Below are positions 30,032 to 60,583 of a stretch of 64,000 nt of DNA, in pieces. The stretch spans positions 1,178,001 through 1,242,000 of the forward strand of contig JAFCMP010000013.1 in the NCBI GenBank assembly GCA_017506865.1, given 5' to 3'. The stretch is from Tribonema minus. Lineage: Eukaryota > Sar > Xanthophyceae > Tribonematales > Tribonemataceae. The notes below the pieces were generated by a model that saw only the letters and a program-made list of their open reading frames with translations, was not told the origin of the DNA and searched no databases. A program made the position numbers and the translations under genes. Numbering within the stretch: position 1 is the stretch's first letter; each line of letters opens with the position of its first letter.

Positions 30032-33000
30032 CTAAGGCTGCAGCGCCATGCCCTGCACCAGGACGCCCGTGCTCGCGTAGATGTCGCGGATGGCCTGGAG
30101 GCTCTCGGGCGCGGGCGCCTGGCCGCCGGGGATGCCCGTGCCCAGGCATATGTACACCCAGCTGCCGGGGCAGCGCTTCAGCCTGACGGGGCGAGAGCAC
30201 GCAGAGAGTTGCGGGCGATAATTCAATGGCCACAGCGTGACTGTGTCTGACAACTTGAAAGGGGGGGTGCGGGGAGGTCCAAGACAGCCTCCAGAGGTTT
30301 GCCGGTGTTGAGCGCACAGAGCACAACACCCAGCCGCCGGGGAAGCGCTTCAGTCTGAATGGAGGGAGCAAAGGACGCAGCAACTTGAAGGCGTCAGGGA
30401 GTGACCAGTCACTGACCACAGCGTGACTTGTCTGACAATTGAAGGAGGATGCAGGGGGGGGGGCTCCGCGCGCAGCGCACCCAGCCGCCGGGGCAGCGCT
30501 TCAGCCTGATGGAGCACTCAATCACTTACAGGCGCCGCGGTAAGCCAGTGAGAAAGCATGACAGAGCGGGGACGCCTGCGGCTCCCCTGCACTTGAATGG
30601 CAAACTTGGACAACGTGCGGTGTACTTCAACGACGGACGTGTGGCCATGCAGGCAGGTGCCGGTGCGTCGAGCGGCGTCGTGACGGCATCACGGCGTAGT
30701 GTCAGCAACGCTTGCGGCAGTGGTGCCGGGAGTATTGGCCCTTTGACATGCAGTGTGAGCGCAGCAGCCGGAGCCGCTCCGCATGGCCCACTTCACCAAG
30801 ATCATGCTGCAGTGATTGCCGACGTCGTCAGCGCCGCGCCCTAGAGCGGGGTGAGCCACTCATTCAGAAGTCAGCAGCTTGGCTGTTATGGTCGATGCCC
30901 TCTCGGCACTGCCCACAGAAGGACGCAATGAGTCACTCATGTCAGGCGACTAGGACTCATCAGTTCGCTTCGATGCGGGGCGCGCTCACATGGCAAAGGC
31001 GACGCCGCGCGTGCGGATGTCGCCGCCGATGCTGAAGTTGGCGCACACGTGGCCGCTGGACGGCAGGTACAGGCGCGCGTACGCCTTCTGCACGCACTTG
31101 AACGTGGCGTCGGCGCTGTAGCAGTGCACCGTGAACACCTGCGCACACAAGCAGGGGATATGCGGCGCACGAGCTGAGCCATGCAACGCACAAAGAGGGT
31201 GGCTGCTGATTTGATGGTCACACGGCTGTCTGTGTCAATCTCTTGGTTTTGCTGCCGTGAAGTGCTGCTCACCCAATTTCAAGAGGCCTCCTGTGGCGTC
31301 TTGTGCATTTGGGGAAAGGTGCACACAGTGCTACGATGCTGGGGCCTCGCCAATCAGCTTCTCGAGAACATCATCTAGGATGTAGTTCCGCGAAGCAAGC
31401 ATCAAGGAACTGATGCTGCTGACCTCTGATCAGCCAGTGATGGCGTATCTGAGTGCGCCGTCTGGGTTGCCCCAAAGCTAATCATTGACAGAAAAATTGT
31501 CTTGATTTGGTTTGACGCATTTTAAGCCTCAATTGCAGACTCAGGAGGTTTCGTGTAAGTGCCTGCCAGCATGGTCGCGTCGGGCAGCACGCAGGGAATG
31601 ATGAACGTGTTCGCTCATCCCTGTATGCTGTCTCAAGGTTGCAATGGCCCCGCAGGCACGTGGTACGCTCGCCTATGCCGCACACGACCGCTCACACTGA
31701 CAGGACTCACAGCGGTCGCAGTCTCCCAAGATGCGCGTAAAAGGGCTGCTTCAACTTGACAACAATTGGTGGGCCACTTGCACATTGACAGGTGCGCACC
31801 ATGACTGACTCGTTGCCTGCCTCCCCAGCCTGTCCACTAGCAAGAGCGGCGGCTGCAGCTGCCCTCCAAGTCACCGAGCAAAGTGTCACTCCATGGCAAC
31901 TTGAACTTCAACACTGATTTCAATTCTGGCCAGCGCAGCTCACCAGCGCGTCCACGTCCGCCGGCACGTCGCGCAGGCGCACGGCAATAGAGGCCATTCA
32001 CGTCCACCTTCTGGCGAGAGCACTGCCAACCCAACTTCAACATCAACTTCAATACCTGGAGCAACAGCGCTCACCAGCGTGTCCACGTCCGTCGGGACGT
32101 CGCGCAGGCGCACGACGACGGTCTCGTCGCCCCCTCGCCCTCGCCCGTCCCACACTCGCAACTGGCGAGAGAACTGCGAATTCAACTTCAACCTCAATCT
32201 ATGAGCAACATCGCTCACCAGCGCTTCCACGTCCGGCGGCACGTCGCGCAGGCGCACGACGACGGTCTCGTCGTCGCCCGCCCCTGGCACGAACATTGCC
32301 GGCGGCTACCCACCAAGTCATCGAGCAAAGTGTCACTCGTTAGTAACTTCAATTATGGTATCAGCTTCAACTCTCAACAGCAGCGCTCACCAGCGCGTCC
32401 ACGTCCGCCGGCACGTCGCGCAGGCGCACGACGACGGTCTCGTCGTCCCCCCCGCCCTCGCCGGTCCTGTCGTCGCCGCCGTACGCCACGCCCGGCGCGG
32501 ACTTGGCGCCAAAGAAGACGACGTGGCGCGCGGCGCCGTCGCCGCCGAGCATCACCACGCCGGCGTCGAGGTCCACGCCCTGACCGTACGTCTCCCAGCC
32601 GAGGCCGAGCGCGATGGTGTCGGAGAGGCCGCCCGCGAGCATGGCGATGTCGCCTGCGGGGGGGGAAGGGGGGGGAAGGGGGGGGAAGGGGGGGAGAGGG
32701 GGAAGTGGGGGGGGGGGGGGGGGGGAGGGGGCAGCGTGCGCGACAACGTTAGTAAGTGGGGGGGGGAGGGGGAAGACGGGGGGGAGGGGGGGAGGGGGGA
32801 GGGGGCGTGTGCAGCGCTGTTAGCGCAGCGTTGTGCTGCCGACAGCGCTTGTGTTTCGCCCATGCTCCAGGCATATTATCTGGCGTCCGATGGCACAAAG
32901 TCGCCACTCTTTTAAGCACGGAGCAAAAATGTCGTAGACGTGCCGCGTGTGGGCTGCTATGGCAACCTCTGGCTGAGGAAATGCCGACAAAGCTGCCTGG

Positions 33001-36000
33001 AAGGTGAGCACAAAGCGCGCAGCAACACCGTCGCTTTGCGGCCTCTGGTTCCAGCAAACGGCCGCCCCCAAGACGCCGCGAGCTTGCAAACGTGAGTCGG
33101 CCGTCCTCAGCCATGCATATCTGCCAAGGCATCATAGTGCGGCACGCACGTCTCCGCCGAGGCGTCACACGGCTCAGAACACGGCGCGCGCACCTGCGCT
33201 GAGCGTTGCACCTGCGCTGAGCTGAAAAATACGGATACCTCACAGTGGCACTTCGGACGCTCGCACAAGTGAGTCGGCCTACCTCAGCCATGCGTACAGC
33301 GACCGAGGCATCATGGTCACAGTGCAGTATGTGTGTACTTGCAGCAGCATCACACAGCTCAGCACACACGCGGCGTGCGCACCTGCGCTGAGCATTGTGC
33401 CTGCGCTGAGCTGAGGCCTGTGGTCCCGGCAAAAGGACACCCCACCATGGCGCTTCGGACGCTTGCAAAAGTGAGCCGGCCTATCTCAGCCATGCATATA
33501 GTCGCAGAGACGTAGTGGTGCAGCATGTGTATACTTGCAGCAGCATCACACGGCTCAGCACACACGCGGCGCGCGCGCACCTGCGCCGAGCTGCACCGTC
33601 TTGGTGGCGGTCATGATGGCCGGCGCCGCGCGCGCGGTGAGCGGGCCGAGCGCTGCCAGCGCGCCGCTGAGCGCTGTCATGTCCAGCGGGTCGGGGGTAC
33701 CCACCCACGCAAGTGCCTGGTTTGGTTCAGCCAAAGTGGTTGGGTTCAGCCAAAGGAGGGGGCGACGTGTGGATGGTAAGACAGCATGCGACAACATGGA
33801 GGCGTATAAAATGGGGTGGGAGGTACTTTATATGCTGAGCGATGTCATGTCCAGGGGGCGGGGGTGCCCACCCACGCGAGCGCCTGGTTCGAAGCCAGAG
33901 GACGGGGAAACAGAAAAACATGTCAATGTGATACAATATACTTCTGCAGTAGTGGATCATCATCATGTGGTGGCGTCTGATAATGTGGCTGCCTTTCTGC
34001 TCTTGTACTCGAGAAGCGCACGTGTGCGGTGCTGAGGAATCAAGATTCAATGTCCCCCCCTTCCGAGGCAAAGTATTTGTTGAAGTTTCTGACGCGCGAC
34101 TCACCGCGCGCTCAAAGTCACCGCTGAGCTCTGACTTGATGGCCTCCGTGATCATGCGCCCATACTGCTGTAGCACCATTACCATGCAGTTACAGTGACA
34201 GACTTTACAGTGTTGAAGTTGACTCACCGCGCGCTCAAAGTCCCCGCTGAGCTCCGACTTGATGGCCTCGGTGAGTGTGCGCCCGTACGTCTCCAGGTAG
34301 TGGTCCGCCACGGGCTTCATCTCGCGCTTGTCGAGGCTCGTGAGCACGCGCACCACAGCGGCTTCATCGGTCTGCGTGTATGCATGGAGCGGGGGGCAGG
34401 GGGGGGAGACGACAAATTTAGGGGAAAATTGACTCTCAGGGGGGGGGCAGGAGGCGTAGGGGAGCAGCAGAGGGGCAGAAGGAGATGCGCACCACAGCCG
34501 GGTGGGGCGTGGGGGGGCATCTGCAGGTGCAGGCGCAGTTCATCGACGCAATAAATTTGACATGGTTGAAGTATGTGAGGCATCGCACAATGCGAGGGGG
34601 GTGCACGTGCCCGCCGTCCCAGCGACTGCCTTGTACAGCTCGTGCAGCAGCCACGCGGTCGGCTCATACAGCAGCGCCACCACCTCTCTAGTGCCATTCT
34701 GCAAGGCATCAACTTCAAGTCCAAACACCACAGTCAGTCGGCTAACCCTAACCCTAACCCTAAATCTGCACGCGCGGCGACGTACCCCCATCCCTTTGAA
34801 GGCCTTGTGCAGCAGGCGTGCGTAGTACTTGGTGGGCTCATACAGCAACACCACCACCTTCGCTTGCCACAGTGCATCAACTTCAAGTAAGAAAGTAAAA
34901 ACAACGCGCGCGGCGACGTACCCCCATCCCCTTGAAGGCCTTGTGCAGCAGGCGCGCGTAGTACTCGGTGGGCTCGTACAGCAGCGCCACCAGCACGGCC
35001 TCGACGTCGCCGCTGGTCTCGCGCTCGACGGCGCTGCGCAGCGAGTGCCCCGCCAGCTTCTCGTACTCCGCTTTGATTGCCTGGCATGCGCAGATGCAGT
35101 CGCATGACCAACATTGGTGAGCTCATTGCGCTTTCGTCAAGTTGAAGTGTAGTGGAAGGCGCCGCTCCGTAAAGTGGCAAGCCACTTCAAGTGACAAGTC
35201 TGCAAGCGTTTTCAGATCAGACTATAGCTTGTCTCGTGCTCGACTGCGCTGCGCAGTGAGCGCCCCGCGAGTTTCTCGTACTCCGTATTGATAGCCTGGC
35301 GCAGCAATCACGAGTGAGTTACAAGTGATGAGGCTGTGTGTTGCTTTTGGTGCAAGTGCTGTGGAGGGAAGCGTTCCGTGAACCGCCAAGTCGCTTGAAG
35401 GGACAAGTTTGCTTGCATGTAGGATAGAACATCGCTGGCGTTGTGTTCCGCTGCGATGCACATTGAGTGCCCTGCATTCCCCCGTGATGGCCTGGCACAC
35501 AACATGGGCAGGCGTAGTTGCAAGAACCAACGCAATCATAAGCTAGCTCACTGCGCTTGTGTTGTGTTGAAGTGTGCTGGAAGGCGCTGCTCTGTGAAGA
35601 CTCAAGTCACGTCCTCCCGAGGGGCTGAAACTTGCACACGACGCACGTTCCCCACCTGGATCTGCGCGCGCGATGCGCGCGTGAATGTGCTCACAAACAC
35701 CCCCTCGTCCGTCCCCCACTGCCCGACGCCGGCGTCAAGCAGCGCGCGCGCCTGAGCGCTGGCGCGCGCGACATCAGCGGGGCCCTCCTCGTCGCGCTGC
35801 GCGTGCAGCAGCTGCACAATGATCTTCTTGAACGTGCCGGAGAGCTCGCTGTTGAGATGGTCGATGAGCGGCGCGTCGTTCCTGGCATCGTACTTCAACT
35901 TCATGCCGCGGATGCGCGCGTTGGCGCGCGGCGCGAGCAGCTCGATGAGGATTTGCTCATTTGTGCCGACGCCTGCGCGGGGCGGGGAGGAGAGTCACCG

Positions 36001-39000
36001 CTCGCCGATCAGCAAACCTGAACACTTTTACTTCACATCAGTGATATGAATGTACTGCTAGTTAACAGCGAGTGCGCGTAGAAGTGCAGATGATAGACAC
36101 CAACTTGAGGCACGGTACCAGAGTCCATACCCTCTCACCAACGGTGGGGACCTGCTTGTCCGTGCCGACGCCTGCGCGTGCGCATGCGTGCGCGGGGGGG
36201 GAGCGTCACCAGTTGCGGCTCAGAAAATCTCATTCATAACAACCAGAATAATTCAACGCACGGTCACGCGTCACTGATGGTCTCGCGCATGGGCGCGCGG
36301 CGCGCGAGCAGCTCCATGAGGATTTGCTCATTTGGGCCGATGCCTGCGCGCACGGGGGGGGGGGGGGGGGAGAGTCAGCGCTCGCCGATCAGCAACCTCA
36401 ACTTTTTCACCTACAGTAGCCGACGCCTGCGCGGGCAGGGGGGCGTCACCGCTCGCTGATCAGCACATCTCATCATCAACGCCTTTGAAAGGTAGTGGTA
36501 CCTGTGTACTTGTGGACTTGGTTTCATAAGGCCCCCAAGTGAGGCTGGGTGTCCTATGCGATCGTGAAGTTTGTTCCTACACAGCAGCCTGATCTGCATT
36601 CTGCCCTAAGAGCTTGGGCACCGGCGCTGCAACAAAGCGCAGCATCCGCGCTCTGCGTGTGTACACCCTGATGCGCTCCGCCAGCTCCTGCGCCAACGAC
36701 ATTGTGATGCCCAGCTCCTGCTGCATCGTCGTTGCTCGCGTGCAGCTCTGATCAGACCGCACGCACCGTCGCACGCGCGCTGACCATGACGGCGTCGGAC
36801 TCGTTATATATAAGAGGCGTCAACCCCCTTCTACTCAGACCATGTCGAATACAGCCAAGCATGGCAATCCCACCTGCAGATTTTTGACGACTGGCAAAAA
36901 TATGAACATTCAAGTATGCATAGCTACACACCAAAACATTCCTTTTCTAGGGTGGAAGTATACAAAAGGGTTGGAGCAGCACCGCACGCACCTTCGCATG
37001 CGTGCTTGACCATGACGGCGTCGAAGTCATCGTACGGCAGCACGGCGCCTACGAGCAAGTCCTCGTAGTTGATTCCTTCTTCAGTAAAATACATATGAAC
37101 CACAAGTATATTTATTTTGCAAAAAACCGCTCCTTTTTTGAAAGTGTACAAAACGGCTGGAACGCCACCGCACACACCGTCGCACGCGCGCTTGACCATG
37201 ATGGCGTCGATGTCGTCGTACGGCAGCATGGCGCCTACGAGGAGGTCTAACTGATGTGACAAGCATTGCATTGACATGTCCATGTCCACCTATACAGGTC
37301 TCTCGAATAGCTCCCGTTGCGCGCGGTGCCGCCGGCTCGACTCATCAGAGGCGCAGAGCCCTTGCTGCATCGCCGCTGCTCACGCGCAGCTCTGATCAGA
37401 CCGCACTCACCGTCGCATGCACGCTTGACCATGATGGCGTCGAAGTCGTCGTACGGCAGCACGGGCGCCCACGAGCAGGTCCTCGTAGTTGATTTCTTCT
37501 ACAAATATATATATAGATGAACCACGAGTATATTTGTTATAATGAGCAGAAAATCGCTCCTTTCTTGAAGCGGAAGTGTACAAAAGGGTTGCAACGGCGC
37601 CGCACGCACCGTCGCACGCGCGCTTGACCATGATGGCGTCGAAGTCGTCGTACGGCAGCACGGCGCCCACGAGCAGGTCCTCGTAGTTGCCGCTGCACTC
37701 GCTCTTGATCATGTCCACGAGGCTCTTGCTGAAGAGGCGGTGGTACGCCCTGTCCATGCGCCGCAGGTGCTCCTTGGAGCGCCCGCAGGCGATGCGGATG
37801 AGCGCGCCGTCGTCGGTGCCCGCGCCCGCGCAGGCCCTGCGAGAGGGCATTCATTCATTCATTTGCTGATCTGTTCATTCATGTCATCAATTCATTCACT
37901 GATTCATTGCATAATTATTCCTTCATCCATCAATTCATTCATTCATTCATTCATTCATTCATTCATTCATTCATTCATTCATTCATTCATTCATTCATTC
38001 ACTCAAGTAGGTACGCCTGTCCACGCGCCGCAGGTGCTCCTTGGAGCGCCCACAGGCGATGCGGATGAGCGCGCCGTCGTCGGTGCCCGCGCCCGCGCAG
38101 GCTCTGCGAGGCCACATTCATTCACTCAGTCATGCCATTAATTAATGAATTTACTCATTCAATGCCAAAATGACAGCGTATTCATTTACCAGGCAATTAC
38201 TCAACTTCAACTCCCGTCTCTACACATGATGAACAGCGCTTGCGCCGCAGCTCACCGGCAGCTGTAAAAAGTACGTCAACTTCATCTTCATTGTTCAACA
38301 AGTCAATCATCGCTGCAGCGTGACGGCGTCGGCCTCGGTGATCTCTGACTGCAGCGCCTCGTGCGTGCACAGCAGACAAACGCAGTTCTACATACGTTCA
38401 ACTTCAACTTCCATGCTACACATGTTGAGTGACTCACCGCTGCAGCGTGACAGCGTCGGCCTCCGCGATCTCCGACCGCAGCGCCTCGCGCTCTCGCAGC
38501 AGGCGCTGCGCGAGCGCCTTGGGGTCGCTCGGGCGCGCAGCGTACTCCAGCCCCCCTGTTTTACGGTGGCGCGCAGCGATGGTGAGCACTGCTGTATCTT
38601 GTATGGCACCACGCACGCTCGTGCAAACACACATACACACACAAAACAAGACCCCCTGCAACGATACGGCGGCGGGGCGCAACGATGATGAGCACTGTTG
38701 TATGTTGTGTGGCACCAAGCACGCTCGTGACAACACACGTACTTCGAAGTACACACAAAAAAAGACATGAGGGGGGTCAAGGGCTCAAACCCACGTACTC
38801 CAGCCACCCTGCGACGATACGGCGGCGGGGGCGCAGCGATGATGAGCGCTGTTGTTTTGCACTCAGCACAATTGTGCACATGACATGCCTACACAAGCTG
38901 TGTACTCGAGGCTTTCTGCGACACAGCGGCAGGGGGCCAAAATGAGTGCTGGGGCGTACTCCAGCACAACAAACCCTACTTGCAAACCTGTGGGGTCGTT

Positions 39001-42000
39001 GCTGTCGCACCACGCCGCCGCCGCCTTTCGGAAGTCCCCCGTCATGAGCGCCTCGCGCTTGAACGTCTCCTGCAGCGTCGCGCCAAATGCCTCCAGGTAC
39101 GCCTCGCACACCGCTGGCATTGCGCGTTTGTCTGTGCCACCGAGCAGACGGCAGATCCTGTCGGAGTCCTGCTCGAGCGCCGCGCGCATCATAGCTAGGG
39201 TTAGGGCTTGAACTAGGGTTAGTGTTAGGGTTAGGGTTAGGGTGAGGTTGGGAGGTCTCCTGTAGCGTCGCACCGGACACGTCGAGGTACGCCTCGCACG
39301 CCGCTGGCACGGCACGCCTGTCCATGCCACCCAGCAGATGGCAGATCCTATCGGAGTCCTGCTCGAGCGTAGCGCGCGTCAGAGCTAGGGTTAGGATTCG
39401 GATTGGGGCAAGGGGGTGGTCAGGGGGCACGCCGGACGGAGCATCAGGGTTAGGGTTAGGGAGAGGCTCACTGAAAATTTTCACCGTGCCGACGCCATCC
39501 AGTGCCTCCTTGAGCGCCTGCGCCGTGTACGTGGCAGCGCTGGGCTGCAGCAGCGCAACAAGCGCGCGCTCCGCAGTCCAGCCTAACGCTTCTAACATCA
39601 TTGTACTACTTCCAACGTGAGAGTTCTAGATAGTCAATCAGATTTCAATGACAATGTTCTCACCGTCCAAGACCTCCAACATTATTGTAGAAATTATCAA
39701 GAATTAATAAGTTCTTTCAGATAAATGAACAATCAAAAGCCAGTCATAAAGTTTCTGAAAATTTCCTCACTGTGCCGACGCCGTCCAGCGCCTCCTTGAG
39801 CGCCTGCGCCGTATACGCGGCAGCGCTCGGCTGCAGCAGCGCGGCGAGCGCGCGGTCCGCAGTCCCAGCCAAAGGCTTCCAACATCATTGTGCTACGTGC
39901 AACGTGAGAGTTCTAAATAATCAATCAGAATTCAGTGACAATATTCTCACCATCTCCAACATTATTGTAGAAATTCTCATTGATGTAGAAAGTCTCAAGA
40001 ACCAATCATATGATCTTTCAGATAAATGAATAGTCAGAAACCAGTCATAACGTTTCTGAACGTTTCCTCACCGTGCCGACGCCATCGAGCGCCTCCTTCA
40101 GTGCCTGCGCCGTGTACGCAGCAGCGCTCGGCTGCAGCAGCGCGACGAGCGCGCGCTCCGCGGTGCCGCTGAACTCCTTCTCGATGGCCTTGCGCAGCGA
40201 CATGCTGTTGGCGCGCTCGTACGCGTCCTTGATGGCCTGGATCTGTACGTGCGCATGGGCACACACATGTGGCAGAGAAAATACAATGAAAACTGTGTCA
40301 TCATGCTTACAGAAGAGCGCCGCTGGCGCGCACTCGGCAATCAAGCCCTAAACCTGGTCCTAACCCTAACCCGACGCCAAACCCTAACCCAAACCTAACC
40401 CTAATGCTAACATGCCGGTGGCGCGCTCGTGCGCGTCCTTGATGGCCTGGATCTGCACGTGCGCACGCGCACACACACGCGGCAGGCAAAGCACAATAAT
40501 CATGAGACTATCACGCATTGAGGCGCGCTGCTGGCGCGCTTGCTCGGCGGTTAACTCTAACCTTGGCCCTAGCCCTAACCCTAACCCCGACCCTAGCCCT
40601 AACTCTAACCCTATCCCGCCGCTGCAAATCGCGCAAGTGTTCCGCCGCCGGTGCGCTTGCTGTTGCCTCGCTGCAAAATCAGCGGGCTGCGCCAGGAAGA
40701 GCGCAGAGGGACACCCCGTGCCATGCGCAAAGGCCGTGGAGCCTCACTCGCGCCCACCATCAGGGGTATGGTGAGGTCACAAAGGATGCAGGCAGGTACT
40801 GGCGTGCTCAGGCGCTGCGCGGATGCGACATCAACTCACGAGTGCACGGCAACGAACGCCCTACAGAATTATAACCCTGACCCTAATTCTAGCCTTGACC
40901 ATAACGCATAACCCTAGCCCTGAGCAAAGGCAGCGCCGCTCCCGAGCTGCTTTGGCGTACGGCTGACCGCATGTCGCGACTGCGCTGGGCCAGACAGAGC
41001 GTCCAACGACAGCAATGGACGGGCTAACCCTAACCCTAACCCTAACGTTAACCCTAACCCTAACCCTAACCTGAACCCTAAGCAAAGGCGGTGCCTCACC
41101 TTAAACCTAACGTTCACCCTGACCCTGAGTCTAAGCAAATGCAGCGCCGCTCCCGAGCTATACTTTGGCAATACGCCGCACCGCGCGCCGCGACCGTGCT
41201 GGGCCCAACGCAGCCGCCAACAATGCGATGCACGAGGTCTCCAGTGGTTCTCTTACCCCATTCTGTATACTTAAGGAAATGATTCATCCTGATTGTTGAA
41301 GATTTGGAAGTTACAAAGTTTAACAGACCTGCGCCCGGGACTGCCCCACGAGGATCTCGAGGAACGTGTCTTCATCCGTGCCCATACGGCCGATGCCCGC
41401 CTTGTGCAGCCGCTGCGCCTGCTGCGCCGCCGCCGCCGCGTCCACGGCGGCGCTCTCGCTCTTGTTGCCTTGGAACTGCGCGGGCGGGCGCGTAGAATGA
41501 GAGCGATGCGTGAGCGTTGGAAGTGTACCTTCAATGTCAGCTTCAAAGATGCTGTCGCCGACGCGTCCACGGCGGCGCTCTCAAACTGCGGTAGTACAGG
41601 CGTGGGCATGCGGAAGGGGTAATGCGTGCGTTAGAAGTGTGGGCGCGGGCGCGCGACGGGCGATGTGTCAGAAGTGTAACTTCAATGTCAGCTTCAAAGA
41701 TGCCGCCGCCGCCGCATCGATGGCGGCGCTCTCGCTCTTGTTGCCCTGGCACTGCGCTGGCGCGTGGGAGTGCAAAACTCAGGGTTAAGGCTTGGGTTGA
41801 AGTTAGGCAGCACAATGGACCGGAGCAGTTGAGGTTGCAAATTTTGGAATGCGACGCCCAGCAACAAGAAATCATGCCTCAGCTCGCAAAGAAGTGTGCT
41901 GTGAGCGCCCTGGTGTCGCTGGTCTACCAGCGGTTCGGCTTTGGCTGCACGCGCGTGCCAGCTCACCGCGCCTGCCAACTGAGCGAGCTCAACGCTGCTC

Positions 42001-45000
42001 ATCTGATAGAACGTGCCGCAAGTTCAACGGTTCGCAAACACAGCTCCGCAGTTAACCTCCTGGCGTAGTTCTACCTTGCAGCGTGGTAGCTAGCAGGTAG
42101 AAGAGTGGACGTAGACAGGCAGGTAGCTATTGCAGCCGTGAATATTGTGAGCAGGTACCGATTCTTGGATACTTCGTCACAGAATGGTAGGAGCCAAAAA
42201 ACTCAAGCTTGTAGGTATCTGGTGCTGTAAGAAAGTACTGTCTCTTGCATACCTGGCAGTTGAATGGTGGGGGAAAAAACGAACTAGTAGGTATTATCAT
42301 CTGAGCGGAGGCAAACACAAGCAGTCGGGTACAGGTATGATATATATATACTTCGAAGTAGGTAGGTTGCAGGTAGTGAAGGAGGGCAGGCATGCATCCG
42401 CAGTGTACCTGCGACACGAACAGCTTCCTGATGGTCTTGCTGAAGGAGCCAAACTCGGAGTTGAGCGTGTCCACCACGCTCTTGGAGTGCTGCGCCTCGT
42501 ACTTGGCTTGGATGGCCGCCTGCGCCATCAGAATAAAGGGCCTGGATTAGTCTCACCCTGATCCTGAGCTTAACCCAAAACCCTAACCCTAACCCCAACC
42601 CTAACCCTGACCGTACCCCTAAACCTAGCCCGACTGCGGACTTGCAGAGCGGGTTTCGCACTACCAGAATGGCGCAGCCATGACGCTCTTGGAGTGCTGC
42701 GCCTTGTACTTGGCGCGAATGGCCGCCTGCACGCTCAGATAAAGGGCCTAGATTAGTCTCACGGTGACCCTGAGTGTAACCCTAGACCCTAACCCTAACT
42801 CCAGCCCTAACGGTGACCCTAACCCTAACCCTAACCCTAGCCCGACTGCGGAAGGCAGAGCGCGCATTGCGCTACCAGAATGGCGCATCCAACGGTGACG
42901 CAACGCTCGTGGCGCAAAAAAGTGGAAGCTTCCGCTGCAAAGCGTAACAAGATGACGCCAGAGCCCGTCGAGAGCGTGACAGTTCTCAGCGACTCTCAGA
43001 GCCGCTTTTCGTCCGCCCTGCGGGGGCTTGCCTTTCTACAAACGGGGTATGTATGCTTGCACGTATGCTGCGTTTGAGCGCTGCTGCGTTGCAACGCGTG
43101 GACGGAGGTAAAGGCACGGCAGCATTGCTCAGCAGAGGCAGGGGTCCCCTGCAGCTTTTTGTGTGGCGCTTTACAGACATGTCAACACCACAACGGGGGA
43201 GGGGGGGGGTACAGTCAGGGTTGGGGGGTGCCACGGGGTGTCCGCCGCCGCCGAGTGACACGAACACTAACCCTGACCCTAATTTTAACCCTAGCCCTAA
43301 TTGTGAATTGCGCTGCGTGTCGGCGGCCAGCAGGTTGGCGAGCATCGTGAGTGGAAGTGATTACAGCCCAGCCGTCAAGATGCAGCAGCACTGCCGCACA
43401 GAGGCGCTGGCGGCGTTGTTCTATGGTCGCGCATGGCACATATTGCAGCGACATCACAGCCACGCGCAGAGTAGGGCATGGCGCTTCATGCAAGGACACC
43501 GCGCGGCACGCCATCCTCGAAGCACCGCCCGTAGGAAGCGAGAGACGAGAAAAGCACAGCGCGGCACACGATCGCCATGTGCTGGCGAGCACTGTCCCAA
43601 ACGAGCGAGACACACAAACTGTGTCTCACGTATGGCCAGGCTGCTGAGCTGTGTGCGGCACTCACCAGCTCCGCGTTGTTGCGCGTGTTGAGGAGGTCGA
43701 TGAGCGCGCTCTCGTCTGCGGCAGCGCTCAGCAGCACACATCGCGAGTACGCGTGGTCAGTCAAGAAGAACATTTGAGTTCACGTGCGCGGTCAGTTCAC
43801 ACGCGCCTGCGGCACGGCCGCTGAGTGCGGGCGCGCCGAGGCTGGCTGTCTCAGCGATCAGGTGGCAGAGGCGGTTGCTGACGTTTTGTGGGCTAGCACC
43901 AATGCGTGGCGACACGCGCATCCGGCTCATGCAGACAGACGCTGGTGACAAACTGCGAGCACCCATCGCAATCAGTCTTCCGTGGCGTTGCGGGGAGCTA
44001 CGCGAGCAACTGCGCGTGAGTGGCCGAAGCGGCTCCAGACTTCGTGCTCGGCGCCGGCTGTGTATCTGAGGGGTCTGGATTATTAATCATCAACTATTCT
44101 TCTAAATATTACTTCTATTTCTTTACTGGCTCTGTGCACAGCGCTTGGCACTGCCGATTGCTCTGAGCATTGCGGAACAGGTCTTAAAGAGTGTGTGGTT
44201 TTCGTGAAGAGAGTTTGGGAGAGGCTGCGGCATGCGCAGCACTCCTTGCTTGGCACCGACCAGCAAGATTGGGCCCACAGCTGTAGCAGAGTACTTGCTG
44301 GTACAGTAGGATAGCATGAAGAAGACTCTGGCTCTGCATTCAGCGCTCACAACCAGCTCTGCATTTTCAGCACTCAGAGTTGGCTCTGTATGCACACTGG
44401 GTTGCTCCTCAATGATCAGCATTGGGCACGTTGAGTCACTCGGTACTGACATGCTGACTCTTCGCGTAATGGCCAGGTGCGCGTGGGCATGCGCACAAGA
44501 ATGCTGAAGATTGAGACGCTTTTCTGAAGACCCTTCTTACTTGTTTGCAGAAATGAATACACAAGCTAAACTGCGTCCGTGGGCAGCAAAATCAGCATGT
44601 GCTGTACTTACTTTTACTAAATTCTACTTCCACTTGAAGTACTTGCGGCGTGAGGGGCGGAAACCCTATTCTGCTATTCTGCACCACGTCGTATACAACG
44701 CGTCTGCTCCTACTGAGCGTGTGCACGCCTTCCCTGCTGGGAGCACGTACTTCATAGTATGAGTTCCGTACTCACCGGTGCTGTCGGTAGGATGTGCAGG
44801 CGGGCAGCAGCGAGCAGCAAGAGCAGCAGCAGCATGCGCAGCAAAGAGACAGGCGTGGCAGCTCGTCAGTATGATTTGCTGCTGTCAGGCGTCGATCAAC
44901 GAAGCCAGAGGCATCCAGATCAAGAAGGTCTCTTTGAGATGTCATGCATCGGCTCCTGCTCTGCATGATTTGCATATATGACACATACAAAAGCTGCAGC

Positions 45001-46958
45001 ATAGCGAGGCGTGCGCTCCTGCGCCAGCAGTCATCCAGCACTCTGTGTCATATCAAGCTTGAAGCACGTGTGTAGAAGTTGTTTACTCCGCGCTGGCGCG
45101 CCGCTTGCTGCTTCAACTGGACGCAGCACTTCGATCAGGCGCGCCGGAGCGCGGGGCTCACACCGTGCAGTGTGTACATGCCCATACACACAAAGATACG
45201 CACAACGTGCAGTGTCTACGTGCCTGACAAAATCGCAGTGCTCAGCAGTGCGCGCGCAGCCCACGTTGCTGCCGACAGCATCTTTAGGCTCAAACACTTC
45301 TGTGACCCAAGTGCATGCGGCGCTGTCTGCCTTCACACTTTCGCAACCCATTTTTTATACTTCGAAGTGTTCATAGCGTACTTCATTTACTTGGAGGGCC
45401 TTCAAGCGAGGACACAACCCACCAAGCAGATCCTATGCAAGACTGATGCCTCGATGTTGAATGCGCACAGCAGGTGACTCTCCAACTTCCTGCTGCCGCC
45501 CAGCAAGGCCCGAGCACAGGGCATGCGCGATGCTACCACAGTTAGCTGCGACACTATCAATACCTTATGTGCCCTACGGCCTCCACCGCCTTGCTTAAAG
45601 ACCGTGCGCCGTAGGTGCTAGTATCTGTCGCGATAGCAATTAGGACTTGCAAGGTACTTTTTCATCTACAGTGGGAATAGTTGTCAACAGCAAACATACG
45701 TACCCCACACCCTCCACAGCCTTGTGGAAGACCTGCGCGCCGTAGTCGTCCACGTCGAGCAGCGCGTACGTGATCATCTTGCCGAACGCGCCGCCGACAT
45801 CGCTGTCGACAATCCTGGCGAGCGTCTTGCCATACTTGGCGACGCACGCAGCGGACAGAGTGTCCAATTGGGGCTGGAGAGGCAGGTGAAAAAAAGGACG
45901 GGCAGGTTTCAGGTGCATATACGTAGGCATTCACCAGCGAGGTGTGATAAACCCTCAGAGCTCTGGAGCTCTGTCCACGGGGAACGCCCTGCTGCTTTAG
46001 CTGCTGATCGCGTGTACGAAGGCCTTGAAGCGGAAACCATGGAGAACGCCATCATGCGGCTCAGTAGCGCAGTGCGCGACTCACGACGAGCAATACTTGA
46101 CACACTGGTCAGAAATTGAAACAGCTCAGCCGCTTGCTCACAGCACCCACTGAGCACACATCGGGCGCGGGATCGCCGTGATGTTGTGTGATTGCTGTGC
46201 TTGCGCAGTTGGGGCATGGGCCATATAGTTACCGCATGTAGCAGCCCGAAGTACTGCACACGCTGCAGCTGCGCTGACGCGCCGCAAGCCGGGGTTGTTT
46301 GCGTGACTGAAAATAGCAGGGGCACAAGGGCTTGGGAAGGCCCCACAAGAGGCCAGGGTGCGCTCCTATTTCCTTTTTATGTGTGCACTCTCGGCAAGCG
46401 CACACGGTGAACACCGTGGCCAAGCACTGCATGTTGTAAGTTTCGATTACGCCGTCAGATGTAGTTATTTGTCCAAGCAAAAGTCTGCCAGTGCGGACGT
46501 CAACTCCAGACGCTGCCTTCTAGCGTGCATACATGCACAGCACACGCGGCCGACTACATGAACGACGTGCCGATTGCACAAGGATCCCTCCAACTCACCT
46601 TTGTCCTGTTGCACAGCACCCGAATCTGCAGCAGCAGAGATGCGCGAGCAGCACAAGCAGGAGCAGACAGGCAAAGCAGAGGAGGCGCACCGTGAGCAGC
46701 GAGTCCATGGATCATTGCGAGCGTGTGCACCTTAAACACACAAAATAAATTTCTCACCAGCCTATCCTCATCTGTGCCCATGCCATCAGTCGCCTTCTTG
46801 ACGGCGATGGCGTCCTCCTCGGCGATGAAGTGCTTCAAAAAGACCGTCTCCTCGACCAGGGCATCGTTGATTGCCTTGAGCTGGGCAGCATCCATAGAGT
46901 CAATCTTGTCCTCCGCCACGGTCACCGTCATGCTCATCCCGTTCGCTGCCGCAGGCAT
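30032..46958 (-). CDS. Eight-repeat annexin fused to a TerD domain, 910 residues
   Basis: Exons: 46758-46958, 46599-46625, 45704-45873, 43666-43726, 42409-42519, 41329-41475, 40072-40242, 38988-39168, 38438-38555, 37610-37836, 35656-35972, 34922-35080, 34228-34371, 33581-33716, 32391-32653, 30990-31138, 30032-30182. They sum to 2733 nt, phases agree at all 16 joins, and the frame stays open to the TAG. Annexin repeats bind phospholipid through Ca2+. Eight G-x-G-T-D/N-E type positions are visible: GMGTDEDRL (residue 59), GVGAAADES (degenerate), RMGTDEDTF, GVGTDSDRI, GAGTDDGAL, GVGTNEQIL, QWGTDEGVF, GMGTDEAAV. Four repeats, a charged helical linker (about 357-385) and four more repeats match the octad layout of animal annexin A6. 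Residues about 725-890 are TerD-like: GLGWETYGQGVDLDAG, VVFFGAKSAPG, GGDDRTGEGGGDDE. TerD proteins bind Ca2+ through these acidic loops. The ATG lies in CACCATG. The 27-nt second exon (IRVLCNRTK) was found by phase and helix fit. Confidence 0.88.
30300..30520 (-). repeat. Echo copies of the last annexin/TerD exon start
   Basis: The acceptor and first codons of exon 30032-30182 (LKRCPGSW; plus-strand CAGCTGCCGGGGCAGCGCTT) recur at about 30330-30358 and 30478-30512, each with the AG acceptor context. Confidence 0.7.
31944..32390 (-). repeat. Three extra copies of the TerD exon end
   Basis: The stretch GDDETVVVRLRDVPADVDAL with GTGAGC donor is repeated with donors after 32219, 32075 and 31944 (true donor after 32391), spaced 172, 144 and 131 bp. 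Copies stay in good shape: one reads DVPPDVEAL, another DVPTDVDTL. Between them sit CAACTTCAAC motifs. They would allow alternative last-segment exons if an acceptor is used. Confidence 0.8.
32391..32653 (-). CDS. Exon encoding the core of the TerD domain
   Basis: This 263-nt exon, from a phase-1 acceptor to a phase-0 GTGAGC donor, codes for the most diagnostic TerD part. It contains LGLGWETYGQGVDLDAG, then HVVFFGAKSAPGVAYGGDD, RTGEGGGDDETVVVRL and RDVPADVDAL. The family typically shows LGWD, DLDAS, a D/F-V-F-Y strand and GDNLTGEGEGDDE. It joins exon 33581-33716, which finishes the last annexin repeat, through a split Gly codon, and exon 30990-31138 (VFTVHCYSADATFKCVQKAY). Confidence 0.88.
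33040..33560 (-). repeat. Tandem duplicated intron segments upstream of the TerD exon
   Basis: The plus-strand sequence around CACACGGCTCAGCACACACGCGG and CAGCCATGCATAT, with CTTCGGACGCTTGCAAAAGTGAG-like sequence, recurs at about 33080-33200, 33245-33400 and 33440-33590. The units cover the region just past the donor of exon 33581-33716. No coding motif is seen in them. Confidence 0.6.
34600..34921 (-). repeat. Echo copies of annexin exon 34922-35080 end
   Basis: The coding stretch LLYEPTEYYARLLHKAFKGMG with GTACGTCG donor recurs at about 34777-34870 (one Glu to Lys change, donor retained) and, poorer, at 34625-34690. A CCCTAA run (34742-34765) lies between them. Confidence 0.78.
35225..35500 (-). 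repeat. Echo copies of annexin exon 34922-35080 start
   Basis: The acceptor-side segment coding for AIKAEYEKLAGHSLRSAVE recurs at about 35235-35300, in good condition, and as a remnant at about 35440-35500. So this exon is echoed on both sides: its end downstream, its start upstream. Confidence 0.72.
36100..36450 (-). repeat. Echo copies of annexin exon 35656-35972 start
   Basis: Plus-strand GCTCATTTGTGCCGACGCCT (acceptor side of the GVGTNEQILIELL exon) recurs near 36300-36352 (reads GPNEQILMELLA) and as shorter remnants near 36160-36185 and 36418-36440. Each lies next to GCGTCACC and CTCGCCGATCAGCA-like repeats. Confidence 0.7.
36767..37609 (-). repeat. Four-copy array of annexin exon 37610-37836 end
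   Basis: The coding stretch NYEDLLVGAVLPYDDFDAIM, plus VKRACDG and a GT donor, is repeated with donor-like ends at 37411, 37178, 36992 and 36767 (real donor after 37610), spaced about 185-235 bp. Copies at 37178-37250 and 36992-37070 remain open and nearly identical in protein; the 37411 copy has a frame-shifting base. Each unit also carries an ATATATA and GAACCACAAGTATAT intron segment, so exon end and intron start were duplicated together. Confidence 0.85.
37851..38000. repeat. (TTCA)n microsatellite
   Basis: ATTCATTC-type tetranucleotide repeats, imperfect at 37851-37935 and nearly perfect at 37936-38000, lie in the annexin intron just upstream of exon 37610-37836. Confidence 0.95.
38020..38410 (-). 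repeat. Echo copies of two neighbouring annexin exons in one intron
   Basis: Positions 38020-38105 copy the start of exon 37610-37836 (ACAGAGTDDGALIRIACGR), and 38310-38370 copy the end of exon 38438-38555 (SEITEADAVTLQR with altered donor). One intron thus holds an acceptor-side echo of the next exon and a donor-side echo of the previous one. Confidence 0.78.
39185..39470. repeat. Telomere-like TTAGGG runs and annexin exon echo
   Basis: GGGTTAGGG-type runs at 39190-39250, 39388-39402 and 39440-39462 flank a copy (39255-39385) of the start of exon 38988-39168 (DSDRICHLLGG). The true exon begins immediately downstream on the coding strand. Confidence 0.75.
39485..40071 (-). repeat. Two echo copies of annexin exon 40072-40242 end
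   Basis: The block ALVALLQPSAAAYTAQAL, plus KEALDGVGT and a GTGAGG donor, is repeated with ends at 39771 and 39485 (real end 40072), spaced 301 and 286 bp. Both are open, differ from the true exon by few residues and keep GT donors. The unit includes about 190 bp of AT-rich intron with CCAGTCATAA and GATAAATGAA. Confidence 0.85.
40340..41105. repeat. Cluster of (CCCTAA)n in an annexin intron
   Basis: CCCTAACCC runs with variants lie at 40345-40408, 40555-40618, 40872-40920 and 41023-41100; the last is the cleanest. An acceptor-side echo of exon 40072-40242 lies at 40415-40465. The array is interstitial and broken into short blocks. Confidence 0.85.
41520..41760 (-). repeat. Echo copies of annexin exon 41329-41475 start
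   Basis: The acceptor-side piece (GNKSESAAVDAAAA) recurs at about 41695-41755, good, and 41545-41592, poorer. Both are preceded on the plus strand by AACTTCAATGTCAGCTTCAA. Confidence 0.75.
42540..42890 (-). repeat. Duplicated acceptor of annexin exon 42409-42519 with CCCTAA runs
   Basis: The segment 42680-42890 repeats 42470-42670. It includes the start of the exon (AAIQAKYEAQHSKSV reads AIRAKYKAQHSKSV), the sequence AAAGGGCCT(G/A)GATTAGTCTCAC and a CCCTAACCC run, then GACTGCGGA. This is a clean example of a unit of about 205 bp joining exon start, splice site and telomere-like repeat. Confidence 0.8.
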
Positions 46959-47958: not shown

Positions 47959-50282
47959 TCACTTTTTGTGCTTGAGGGGGTCGCGGCCTGTGGTCCACCG
48001 GCGCTGCAGCTGCGCGTGCGTGAGGCCGCGCGCCGCCGTGGAGTGCTTGGCGATGGTCGCGCGCGCGGCCTGAGAGGGCGGGGGGGGGGGGGGGGGGGAG
48101 GGGGAGGGAGCGGGGGGGAAGGGAGGGAGGGGGAGGCACACGTGAGGGGGGGGGGCATGGGGGCACACGCAATGCAGAAGAGCACTGCGGTGAGAGCGCC
48201 GGCATACGTTCTCTTTCAGTTGTATTGCGGCTGCCTGCGCAGATACTGTGCACGTCTTGTGGCGTGCACGCTGGCCAAACCTGACAAACATGAACTGAAA
48301 TGCGCATGCACATGCGGATGAGCGCTCATGTGACTTCGCCATTCGGTGTTGATCGCGAGTCGTGCCTTAACGGTGCGCGCGCGCATCCAGTTGTGCGATG
48401 AGATAGATGAGCGCAAAACACTCTCATCATACTTTTTCGACCAGAGGCCAGCTGCCTCACGGGCGCCCACTCCCTTACAGGGGGGGCAGGGAGGAAGGAG
48501 GGCCAACCGACGTAGAGCGCTGGACTCAGGAAAAAGTTCAAGGTTAGAGCATGCAGGTAGGTTTAGGGTTAGGGCGGGCGCCGACCTGCTGAATACAGCG
48601 GCGCACACGTCAGGGTACGTAGGTAGGGTTAGTGTTAGAGTTTTAGAGCGCGCGCGCCAATCCGCTGAGTGCGGCGCTGCACACAGAATCAGGGTTAGGC
48701 GACGCCGCCAGACCGCACAGCAGCGTGCACGCGGCTCGGGACGAGAACGGCGCATGCGACGCACGCAGACACACAGACTGTGCGCAATGCCAAGGACCCA
48801 GCGCATGCGTGTCGAGAGACACAAGCCCCCCCGCCCCCCCTTCGTGCGTGGCAGGAGGCAGTAGCCCCCCGCCCCCACCCCCCGCCCCTTGAAATCAAGC
48901 CTGTTGTTGCGTCAGGCGACCAGCTGCGCCGGGCAGAGAGCTTGCTTTGCTAAAGGAATGCGCATACTCGCTGCCGTTCAGCAGCGGCGCACAGTCTCCG
49001 CGGACTCACCATGTTGCCGCCGGCGCCGTCGTGCGCCTTCTGCACGGCGTGCTGCTTGTCAATGTAGGCCCTGCGCAAGCGCAAACAACATCGGGGAAGG
49101 GGGGGGGGGGGGGGCAGGGGGGCGTGACAGAAACGACGTCAGGGTCTAAGCACGGGCGGCAGGCGCGGGGGGAGGGGTCTAAGCACGCACGCACTCGATT
49201 GCTCCGTGACAGGGATTCTGCTGTCTCACCAGGTGCCGCTGGCTGCCGCTGCGCCATCACGTTACGGGGACAGGCTCGCTGCTGAGCGCAATGCAGATTT
49301 TGCATGCGCGGCAGTAGTGAACTTCACTGTTGAAGTTCAGCACGTCAGCGTCAGCGTCAGCGTCGCGGTGGTGACGCTCCTCCAGCGCCGCGTTCCATGC
49401 TTCGACGCGGCTCACGTGCAGGCGTTACGTGCACAGGCACGCAACTGCCTGCACGCCGCTGGACTACGTGCACGGTGGCGACTCTCCTGCGATGCGCGGT
49501 TGCGTACTTCAACAGGCTGAGGCGTCTGCGCCGCACTCGGCCGCTTCTCGCTGCCGGCACACGTTCGCACACAATAAGGCACAGGGGCGCACTTGCATGG
49601 CAAATGTGCTGCATGTTGCGCCCTTTCCTGCAGCTCGTGGGAACCTGAGTTGCACTTGAGAAGGAGAAGGCATGGACTGGCGTGCGCGGCGGCGACTCTC
49701 CCACAATGCCACTGGAGTCGTGTACTCCAAATTGCCGAAGCGTCCGCTCCGCGCTCAGCCGATCTTGCTGACGGCTCACTGCCGCGCTCAAGAATGCACA
49801 GGAATGCACGCCAGGTGTGCTTCTGCGCCCCCCCCCCCCCCCCCCAACTTGTCTGCAGCTCGCGGGAAGTTCCGTTGCATTCCAGAAGGATAAGGAATGC
49901 ACTTGCATGGCGGATGTGCTGCGTGTTCCGCCCCCAAGTTGCCTGCAGCTCACGGGAAGTTCAGTTGCACTGAAGCAGCAAAGGCGATGCCCTTGCATGA
50001 CAGCTGTGGTGCATGTTCTGCCCCCACGCCCAACTTGCCTGCACTTCGCGGGCAGCTCAGTGGCACTCGAGAAGGAGAAGGAACGCACTTGCAGAGCAGA
50101 CGTGGATGTGCTGCATGACTTGCAAAGCAGATAGATGTGCTGCATGACTTGCAAAGCAGATAGATGTGCTGCATGTTCTGCCCCCACTTGCCTGCAGCTC
50201 GCGGGCAGTTCCGTGACGTCTGCAATGAGCTTAGACAGCCGCAGGCACTCCCCGATCGTCAGCTTGCCGGTGGTGTCGTTGT
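47959..50282 (-). CDS. EF-hand-like protein, C-terminal three exons
   Basis: Exons: 50192-50282, 49010-49070, 47959-48069. Phases agree (1, 2, 0). The first starts in the middle of an Asp codon and reads NDTTGKLTIGECLRLSKLI, like an EF-hand Ca2+ loop (D-N-D-T-T-G-K-L-T-I-G-E), then ELPASC. The second reads AYIDKQHAVQKAHDGAGGNM. The last reads AARATIAKHSTAARGLTHAQ and ends KHKK and a stop. The intron 49071-50191 uses a GC donor (GCAAGT). Upstream exons were not found between 50283 and 54546, so the protein start is missing and the full function unknown. A lysine-rich end is plain; no membrane segment is present. The EF-hand call rests on a single loop. Confidence 0.6.
49330..50190 (-). repeat. 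Array of echoes of the EF-hand exon end with GC donor
   Basis: The end of exon 50192-50282 (ELPASC followed by GCAAGT(T/G)GGGG) recurs near 49620-49640, 49845-49868, 49930-49955 and 50030-50058. They are spaced by units with GAGAAGGAGAAGGAATGCACTTGCA and GTGCTGCATGTT sequence. Most copies keep the GC donor. A short ATGTGCTGCATGACTTGCA duplication lies at 50108-50170. Confidence 0.75.
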
Positions 50283-50891
50283 CTGAGGGTTGGGAAGGCA
50301 AGGGGGATGATGCTTGTCAAAAGTGAACGCTAGGTAAAGGCGTTTTGTGCTTTTCAAAGTTCAAGTATTGAAAGGCGGCCGGTCCGTGACTCCTCAACTT
50401 CAAAGTTTTCCAAATGGCAGACGGGAAAACAACAGCTGTACAGATGCGCAGATTGTGCCTTTGTATTGACACCTAGAGTGGTGCTCGCAGGATCCGGAGG
50501 GGCGCGCGCCTCATAATTAGGGTTAGGGTTAGCGAGGGATGCGAAAGTCACGTGAGGCAGGGTAGACGTGATCCAATCCATCGAGGTCAGGATTGTCGGG
50601 CGCGCCGGGCCGCCGCACGTCTACACAATTGCGGGGGCGTGCCATGCGCATGTGCACATTGCGGTGGCGCCTGCAGTTCGCGTCGATCGCGCTGTGAACC
50701 GCCCACTATTTAGAACGCTGCATCAGCGCACGAGGTGCGGACTCGCTGCGCCGTGCGGCACATCACTGCGCGCTGAGAATGTGCGAACGCACGTGTCTGC
50801 TGCAATGTGTTCGCCCAGCTGTTGTCTGACGCGCGCGAGGCTTAGACTACATGCTGGCTGTCAATGACAACAGGGCTGATGCGGAACGCGC

Positions 50892-51596
50892 ATGACAGTC
50901 GGCCGCCAACCGGTGAGAGGCGATCTCCGCCAGAATCATCTGACATGGGTGCATTACGCAGGTCACGAGAACATGAGAGCATTGACGGGAGCACGGCCTT
51001 CGCCTACTGGCGAATGCCAAGCAAATGACGCCAATGAAGCTTACAGTATCGGAAGTATGGTGGCGTCATGCAATTTGCCTTTTACAGGCAAAATGAAACT
51101 GCTAGTTGGCAAGTTGAAGTATATGGAAAGAGAAGCCCCCCATGACGACGGTAGAAAAAAATTGAATGCTGCTGCCTACACCTATGCCATGGAGCTGGGC
51201 CATGCACAAGGTAAACGCGCTGCGGAGCGTGCGCACAAGTTGCGTGCTTTGTCCGGCAATGTTGAAATGGCACTTCTTCAGCATCCGCGTCATTTAGCAG
51301 CGCATGGGTGGAGGTCTATCAGGACTCTAAGAAACCTGAGCTTTCTCCCCTCTGCACTGGCGTCAGTGGTCCTTATCCAACACCCAACACCTCAGCAGCC
51401 CTCTGGAAGGCAGCTGCAATCGTGCAACAGGTCCTTGATTTGCACGAGTGCAAGCAAACTGATGAGCAATGAGAGTGATGAGACAACGAGAAGCAACTGC
51501 ACTGCCACAGAAGAGCAACTGTGTATCTCGACTTGCTCCTGTTGGTTGCTGTGCGCGCCTCGAGACAAAACGGTGCTTCAGTGCAGTGCCCGGTAA
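50892..51596 (+). CDS. Hypothetical protein, 234 codons
   Basis: This is the longest open frame of the interval between the EF-hand gene and the retrotransposon. The middle part (KMKLLVGKLKYMEREAPHDD, then RKKLNAAAYTYAMELGHAQG) could form charged helices; the end is Ser/Cys-rich. No domain, signal peptide or splice pattern was recognised. Base composition is less GC-extreme than the introns around it. Chance cannot be excluded. Confidence 0.25.
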   Translation: MTVGRQPVRGDLRQNHLTWVHYAGHENMRALTGARPSPTGECQANDANEAYSIGSMVASCNLPFTGKMKLLVGKLKYMEREAPHDDGRKKLNAAAYTYAMELGHAQGKRAAERAHKLRALSGNVEMALLQHPRHLAAHGWRSIRTLRNLSFLPSALASVVLIQHPTPQQPSGRQLQSCNRSLICTSASKLMSNESDETTRSNCTATEEQLCISTCSCWLLCAPRDKTVLQCSAR

Positions 51597-52829
51597 TCAG
51601 CCGCCAGCACTACGTCAAAGCTTCAAGCACAAGCGACTGCCCACGTATTTCGCTAACCGCGCAAAGCTCCTGCTGATCCTTGCAGCAACCAGAGACGAGC
51701 TGCAACACGGCTGCAGACGTATGAACCCAGCCACAGACTGCCTTGGCCTGTCTGTCATTGCATTAGGCCTCATTGCCTACACCACAGCCCTCACCTGAGC
51801 CATCTGGCACCAGCTGCTGGCTGCTGCTAGCCCGCCTCGCCACCGCCGGATTGGACATCCTGCTTCCGCCTTCGTCAAGGATATCGCAGATCCTGCGAGA
51901 TTACTGTCGGCCAGGGTGACAGCGGACTCACGGCGCGTAGCAGAGGTGCTGCAAACTCCACTCCGACTGCTCTACCGCCGCTCTAACGCCCGACCTCTCC
52001 TTAAACTTAGACAAACTTAGTGGTACACTCTGAGGAGTACACTGTCCTGTATGAACTCAATGTACACGTGTGTACTCTGCTGAACTGTCTCTAAAAAATT
52101 GCTGAAGACCAACTCTACAGGCTGGAAGGAGACTGGTGCAGCGCTGGTGCAGCCGCTCAGTCCATGTCACAGCTGACGATGCGTCAGGCAATGAGCAAAT
52201 GAGGTCAACAGCAAAACATGATCCATCGTCGAAGATCATTCCCTAGTGGTACACGAGCAAGATGGGCTGATGTCCCAGTCGAATACAGTAGTTGGGCCGT
52301 TGACACTTCGCACAATGGTTGGATGTTTCACACGTTGTTTTTGTTGTGACTGCTGGCACGACTGCAGCGTTGCATGCATGCACTGTCATGCAGGGTTTGC
52401 AGCCAGCAGCTGCAGCTGCCGCTGCAGCAGCATCAGGGCGACAACAACTTCTCAAACTTTCTTGCAGCAGCAGCCACTGGCAGCCAGCCACCCACCCACC
52501 AGCCCAGCCAGCCAAGCCCAGACCAACTGAACCTGCATGATGGCGACAATAACTTCTCAACCTTCCTTCTTTAGGAACTGCATGTTGCCACCAGTTGTGC
52601 CAAATAAGCGCTGCCATGCGCTGTCCCAGACTGTTGCACGCCATCGCTGTCAAGTGGCTCGCGTGACTTTGGTACGCTGCACAGATTGATGTGGTAGCCT
52701 GCTATTTCAGATGGACAACGGTGCGCCGCCGTGCCTTGCGGACACCCCCCTTGCCACTCTCCCAATGCATCTGACCAAAAATGTTGCAAAACCACGACTT
52801 TCACTCCAGCTTCAACTTCAACTCACAGC

Positions 52830-53060
52830 TCAGGCCATGTCCTCGAGCACGGGGCACGGCGACACAGCGGGGATCATGCTGTCTAGGTACGACAGCACGT
52901 CGAGATTGTCAAGCGCGCTGCTGCCGCCGCTGCCGCTGCCGCCGCCGCCAGCGCTGGCACCGCATGGCTCGGGGTCGCTGTTGAAGTCGTTGATCACGAG
53001 TTTGTGAACTTCATGGAAGCGAATTGGGTTTCTCGTGCCTCTCATACTATCATAGGCCAT
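52830..53060 (-). CDS. Hypothetical small protein or first exon, 76 codons
   Basis: It begins MAYDSMRGTRNPIRFHEVHK, has a Gly/Ser-rich centre and an acidic, hydrophobic C-terminus (LDVLSYLDSMIPAVS). The compositional bias looks protein-like, and the ATG is in ATCATGG. No homolog was recognised. It may be a first exon whose donor was not identified. Confidence 0.3.
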   Translation of the reverse strand: MAYDSMRGTRNPIRFHEVHKLVINDFNSDPEPCGASAGGGGSGSGGSSALDNLDVLSYLDSMIPAVSPCPVLEDMA

Positions 53061-55067: not shown

Positions 55068-55080
55068 ACTCCCCCTTTTC
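55068..55080 (-). other. Polypurine tract
   Basis: On the coding strand GAAAAGGGGGAGT immediately precedes the TGTCACGG start of the 3' LTR. This is the expected site for plus-strand DNA priming and fixes the LTR boundary. Confidence 0.88.
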
Positions 55081-60581: not shown

Positions 60582-60583
60582 GT

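Follow-up and report, generated by a model that had tools for sequence, protein, structure and literature searches.

An octad annexin with a C-terminal TerD domain encoded by a 17-exon gene of Tribonema minus

The gene and the domains of its product

The window, i.e., the whole stretch of 64 kb that was analyzed on contig C13 of a genome of 158 Mb in 554 contigs, carries an annexin gene on its reverse strand at 46958-30032. When rebuilt exon by exon, the gene consists of 17 exons with a summed length of 2733 nt, corresponding to 911 codons including the stop and a protein of 910 aa (Table 1). The phases agree at all joins, and the 16 introns, which range from 132 to 1977 nt, all have GT-AG borders. 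The start ATG in exon 1 was assigned by reading; an alignment guided by a paralogous protein from contig C490 begins at 46952.

Table 1 Exons of the annexin-TerD gene, in window positions, with the residues and protein parts they encode.
Feature	Position	Strand	Residues	Content
Exon 1	46758..46958	-	aa 1-67	start ATG, N-terminus, first part of annexin repeat 1
Exon 2	46599..46625	-	aa 68-76	repeat 1
Exon 3	45704..45873	-	aa 77-133	repeats 1-2
Exon 4	43666..43726	-	aa 133-153	repeat 2, degenerate Ca loop GVGAAADES
Exon 5	42409..42519	-	aa 154-190	repeat 2
Exon 6	41329..41475	-	aa 191-239	repeat 3, long loop GRMGTDE
Exon 7	40072..40242	-	aa 240-296	repeats 3-4
Exon 8	38988..39168	-	aa 297-357	repeat 4
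Exon 9	38438..38555	-	aa 357-396	inter-tetrad linker and start of repeat 5
Exon 10	37610..37836	-	aa 396-472	repeats 5-6
Exon 11	35656..35972	-	aa 472-577	repeats 6-7, long loop GQWGTDE
Exon 12	34922..35080	-	aa 578-630	repeats 7-8
Exon 13	34228..34371	-	aa 631-678	repeat 8
Exon 14	33581..33716	-	aa 679-724	end of repeat 8 (ALAWV) and annexin-TerD linker
Exon 15	32391..32653	-	aa 724-811	TerD core, acidic loops DLDAG and GDDRTGEGGGDDE
Exon 16	30990..31138	-	aa 812-861	TerD second half
Exon 17	30032..30182	-	aa 861-910 and stop	end of TerD, C-terminus MALQP

The Pfam Annexin profile (PF00191) matched the 910-aa product in eight stretches (403.3 bits, E 1.7e-123, cut-off 25), with the best stretch at aa 390-452. 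By reading, the eight repeats form two tetrads (4+4) that are joined by a linker at about aa 350-388. The type II Ca2+ loop of annexins combines a GxGT motif with an acidic residue about 38-40 positions further on. Five of the eight repeats contain a GxGT loop, in each case with D or E at position 39 after the T, and the loops of repeats 3 and 7 are longer (Table 1). Among PDB entries, the annexin part scores highest with structures of the vertebrate octad annexin A6 (1avc and 1m9i; 289 and 286 bits), which likewise has eight repeats in two tetrads and from which the window protein differs in repeat 2, where no GxGT loop is present. Annexin A6 is not known to have a TerD domain. Each half of A6 (1avc) finds its best alignment in the second tetrad of the window protein, at near equal scores of 149.1 and 142.3 bits. 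This pattern does not favour a one-to-one descent of the tetrads, and the two octads may therefore have arisen independently.

Behind the annexin part, aa 736-881 matched the Pfam TerD profile (PF02342) with 83.7 bits (cut-off 25.3, E 1.5e-23), covering positions 22-179 of the 187 in the profile. No NCBIfam model matched the TerD part, and the assignment therefore rests on Pfam and on the comparison with PDB entries. In the latter, two distinct solved sequences were matched, 2kxt/2kxv and 3ibz, with the segments DLDA and GD(N/D)xTGEGxGDDE aligned; the acidic segments are shared in the form DLDA and GD(N/D)RTGEGxGDDE, except that 3ibz reads GDNITGEG. The two solved TerD proteins have chain lengths of 200 and 191 aa, whereas the TerD of the window is the C-terminal domain of an annexin. 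The acidic loop residues of TerD are presumably Ca2+ ligands. Here, the acidic residues D28, D30, D61, D70, D71 and E72 (domain numbering) are matched in the 2kxt and 3ibz alignments and are invariant in all three copies of the domain that were found in the genome.

These results agree with an earlier note on the same DNA, which had described 17 exons with in-phase joins and 911 codons, eight annexin repeats in a 4+4 arrangement and a TerD domain with intact acidic loops. The rebuilt gene with its length and GT-AG introns bears out the first of these claims, the eight Pfam stretches together with the rebuilt sequence the second, and Pfam, the structural alignments and the invariance in three copies the third; the HMM search of the translated model, which the note had named as a check, matched both families.

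Three genes with TerD behind annexin repeats

An exon-by-exon profile search of the genome gave 24 annexin exon matches on four contigs (six on C13, seven on C335, five on C468 and six on C490) and three TerD matches, one each on C13, i.e., in the window, on C468 and on C490; these counts are lower bounds, and a TerD split into small exons could escape. At all three places, the only ones at which TerD was detected in this genome, it follows immediately after annexin exons of the same strand. Light-harvesting proteins gave 92 exon-level matches in this genome, which together with the introns mark it as that of a photosynthetic eukaryote. One of these open frames had 651 PDB matches, and the 60 listed are light-harvesting chains (LHCI, ACPI/ACPII, CAC, FCP and others), whose names presumably point to the red-lineage type.

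Pfam found both Annexin and TerD in the models of all three genes (window, C468 and C490). On C468, a 543-nt exon (170215-169673) runs uninterrupted from annexin repeat 8 via the linker into the TerD core. It sits in a 226-aa open frame without a stop, and the contiguous translation that contains it is matched by Annexin as well as TerD. On C490, a 453-nt exon reaches from repeat 8 across the linker into the beginning of TerD; seven annexin stretches of this model pass the threshold on their own, and its TerD scores 86.5 bits. Identity to the window protein over the alignment amounts to 64% for the C468 copy, which is partial, and to 60% for the C490 copy. For the TerD domain, the identities to the window copy are 61% (C468) and 52% (C490), and the annexin-TerD linker is poorly conserved among the copies. 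The C490 and C468 models are uncertain at their ends, and an 18th exon in C490 is spurious because exon 17 reads to a stop three codons past VPG-G. The TerD match on C490 carries one TGA, which lies 2 nt beyond the end of the modelled exon, at a GTGAGT donor.

The fourth locus, on C335 at about 36111-43226, encodes an octad annexin with eight Pfam stretches and 51% identity over tetrad 2. One of its annexin matches has a TGA in the raw frame, and the spliced model has none. No TerD was found in C335, neither by Pfam on the model nor on its contig in the genome search, and its last annexin exon continues as an acidic tail of low complexity, rich in Ser and Asp. Only the annexin part of this model was used; the exons at both its ends are spurious because the aligner was forced towards an absent TerD. 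All four annexin loci detected align as octads and three of them carry TerD; the domain may have been acquired after the branching off of C335, or C335 may have lost it.

The choice of exons by eye is hard in the window gene because partial copies of exon edges lie in its introns (see below). A splice-aware protein-to-DNA aligner was written for the analysis, and the proteins derived from the paralogues were aligned to the window. With the C490-derived protein as query, 17 exons were placed, of which 15 are identical to those in Table 1. The two models have 32 of 34 boundaries in common, and the two that differ are both at the protein's own ends. The C468-derived query, a partial protein of 832 aa, gave 15 exons, 13 of them identical, with 28 of 30 boundaries the same. 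Aligner scores amounted to 2600 (C490) and 2586 (C468) and to 104, 77, 108 and 89 in four controls, for which the window protein was aligned to the other strand or to two other stretches, or its shuffled version was used. Chance assembly of exons was rejected on these controls. There is some circularity in the alignment of the paralogue-derived proteins, since the window protein had itself guided the building of the C490 and C468 models; the annexin-TerD exon of C468 is read from the raw sequence alone. The fusion is no artefact of exon choice.

As the window model is drawn from genomic DNA alone and introns 13 and 14 (511 and 927 nt) separate the two domains, an annexin gene and an adjacent TerD gene might have been wrongly joined. 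However, the splice sites and phase agree in the window, all three TerD copies found occupy the same place behind annexin repeat 8, and on C468 a single exon extends across both domains. Repeat 8 of the window protein ends in exon 14, together with the linker, therefore a transcript ending after exon 13 would truncate this repeat. The candidate of two adjacent genes was rejected on the single exon of C468: there, the DNA itself excludes two separate genes because the annexin/TerD junction lies inside one uninterrupted exon. For the family, two separate genes are thus no longer a serious candidate; for the window copy, judged from its sequence, they appear very unlikely, and taken over all the evidence a wrong joining is highly improbable.

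TerD is best known from bacteria and common there, which could suggest that an assembly chimera or bacterial contamination had placed a TerD beside an annexin. Such an origin is hard to reconcile with a TerD that is interrupted by GT-AG introns, with an identical layout on three contigs, where the other two copies share 52-61% identity with that of the window, and with plasmid records, of which 2339 match the TerD domain, all below 60% identity and the ten listed at 37.6%. Contamination was rejected on the introns and the three diverged copies, and we give this explanation practically no chance of being right. Two phage records also match the TerD domain, at 36.8% and 34.4% identity. In pattern scans for relatives in viral contigs and prokaryote genomes, which used two short peptide patterns each and are weak as negatives, 40, 309, 73 and 55 stretches came up and none was confirmed; one of the prokaryote scans recovered no bacterial TerD whatever, even though the domain is common in bacteria. 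We are all but certain that the annexin-TerD fusion itself is real. The window model and the two paralogues support what the earlier note had proposed, i.e., one gene for an octad annexin with TerD at its C-terminus.

Copied exon edges and other features of the window

The introns of the window gene contain 22 partial copies of exon edges, each located in the intron adjoining that edge, and 21 of them keep the splice dinucleotide. The copies come from 12 of the 16 exons with a length of at least 40 nt. Two further copied pieces are internal, and another three matches correspond to different exons of the gene. Similarly, 25 exon-edge copies (23 with splice dinucleotide) are present in the C468 gene, together with four matches elsewhere, and 19 (16 with splice dinucleotide) in the C490 gene, adding up to 66 copies in the three TerD-bearing genes, 60 of them with the splice dinucleotide. 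The same comparison found no exon-edge copies in the introns of C335. From their sequence, the copies look like products of repeated tandem duplication across exon-intron borders; in the literature searched, nothing among the matches listed corresponds to comparable exon-border duplications. Direct repeats of about 38-135 nt with a spacing of about 60-630 nt are frequent in window positions 1-28000, i.e., also outside the annexin gene, and one was counted at 48000-64000, with telomere-like and low-complexity matches left out. The duplication habit may therefore be wider than the annexin gene.

The exon-edge copies are a possible source of alternative exons. If the duplicated edges were used in alternative splicing, the fusion could be real and TerD nevertheless optional, with the same gene yielding a plain octad as well as annexin-TerD. 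An octad annexin without TerD does exist in this genome, in the form of C335, and the 22 copies in the adjoining introns of the window gene would provide the material. The layout of the exons, however, argues against optional use: exon 14 carries the end of repeat 8 and the linker together, and skipping of TerD on C468 would break repeat 8, which has its exon in common with the TerD core there. We consider an optional TerD quite unlikely.

Further features were observed in the window. Short telomere-type arrays (TTAGGG/CCCTAA, 2-3 units) lie at 39225-42834 and 34746-34763, several of them in introns of the annexin gene, and at 3883-4122. A retroelement region on the reverse strand (56421-60071) comprises a reverse transcriptase and RNase H frame at 57333-60071 and an integrase core frame at 56421-57224. 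An exon-like open frame at 3973-4533 on the reverse strand, about 25 kb from the annexin gene and on the same strand, matched anoctamin (PF04547, 39.4 bits), a family of Ca2+-activated channels.

Constraint on TerD and a putative role of the fusion

Between the three TerD-bearing copies, dN was 0.28-0.30 for the annexin part, 0.30-0.39 for TerD and 0.64-0.79 for the linker. The corresponding dN/dS values (NG86) were 0.31-0.39 for annexin and 0.55-0.9 for TerD, where GC3 reaches 0.975 in the window copy (annexin, 0.902) and dS is therefore depressed and unreliable. Taken alone, the TerD ratio would argue for weak constraint; the acidic positions, invariant in three copies, seem to speak against it. 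An exon-by-exon search of the whole genome gave no matches for TerB (PF05099) or the TerF-like vWA domain (PF10138), therefore a bacterial-type Ter pathway is unlikely. Judging by these searches, the TerD domain of this genome seems to function independently of a Ter system of the bacterial type.

A TerD that had lost Ca2+ binding could be carried along as a fused but inert structural passenger, in a protein that works as an ordinary octad annexin. This would be in line with the faster evolution of TerD and linker compared to the annexin part, with the octad on C335 that lacks TerD, and with the unmatched TerB and TerF-like vWA. Yet the acidic loop positions stayed the same in three of three copies while much else changed, and the solved TerD proteins are matched at these very positions. 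We regard an inert passenger as unlikely, and in our judgement the molecular role of TerD is unsettled.

The reading that we favour as the probable one starts from the gene structure, the repeats, the TerD domain, the conserved acidic residues and the paralogues, all of which are read from the DNA. The 910-aa nuclear-encoded protein, built of two annexin tetrads, a short variable linker and TerD, would act as a membrane scaffold that is triggered by Ca2+, and TerD would add a second module, either for Ca2+ binding or as an adaptor. Upon a rise of cytosolic Ca2+, the annexin tetrads would bind acidic phospholipids and possibly bridge two membranes, as is held for annexin A6. Their binding would bring the C-terminal TerD, which has intact acidic loops and probably binds Ca2+ itself, to the membrane, where it could serve as a second Ca2+-dependent contact or as an adaptor for stress or attachment factors. 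The conserved acidic residues make two coupled Ca2+ modules plausible, and it is from the sequence features above that we infer the binding of Ca2+ and of membranes as well as any function of TerD. Annexins are described as binding acidic phospholipids at elevated Ca2+ (PMC10882027), and TerD domains are mentioned in passing as encoding Ca2+ binding sites (PMC10953051).

Known proteins share one or the other part of this architecture. Two components of the trypanosome flagellum attachment zone, FAZ28 and FAZ30, are eukaryotic proteins with a Pfam TerD, like the window protein, but unlike in the latter no annexin is named in them in the passages that list them; the same list also includes C2 (Ca2+/membrane) proteins (PMC10953051). 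In bacterial annexins, repeats are likewise joined to other domains, with metalloproteases, a lipase, a colicin-type domain and others as partners in place of the TerD found here (Kodavali et al. 2014, PMC3894181). The main text of this survey contains neither 'TerD' nor 'tellur', and it states that for eukaryotic annexins no such extra domains were on record (PMC3894181); a later report describes a zinc finger in an annexin of rice (PMC10743917). In the literature searched, no description of an annexin-TerD fusion was found among the matches listed, in agreement with the earlier note, which knew of none; the papers listed for the two names together concern cancer, drugs, cell biology or biomaterials. 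This search covered papers, and annotated algal proteomes may thus contain the architecture unremarked.

Annexins are described as having a core of four repeats, with eight in A6 (PMC10882027). Three genes with TerD behind an octad core depart from the known pattern of eukaryotic annexins. Tentatively, and with more doubt than confidence, the annexin-TerD octads may be seen as a eukaryotic family of their own, in which a TerD captured from bacteria would have ceased to be a component of a Ter pathway and would now form the effector end, dependent on Ca2+, of a clamp that serves in membrane repair or attachment. The fusion ties TerD to a type of protein with a known activity, Ca2+-dependent membrane binding, and thereby makes a concrete test of TerD's action possible.
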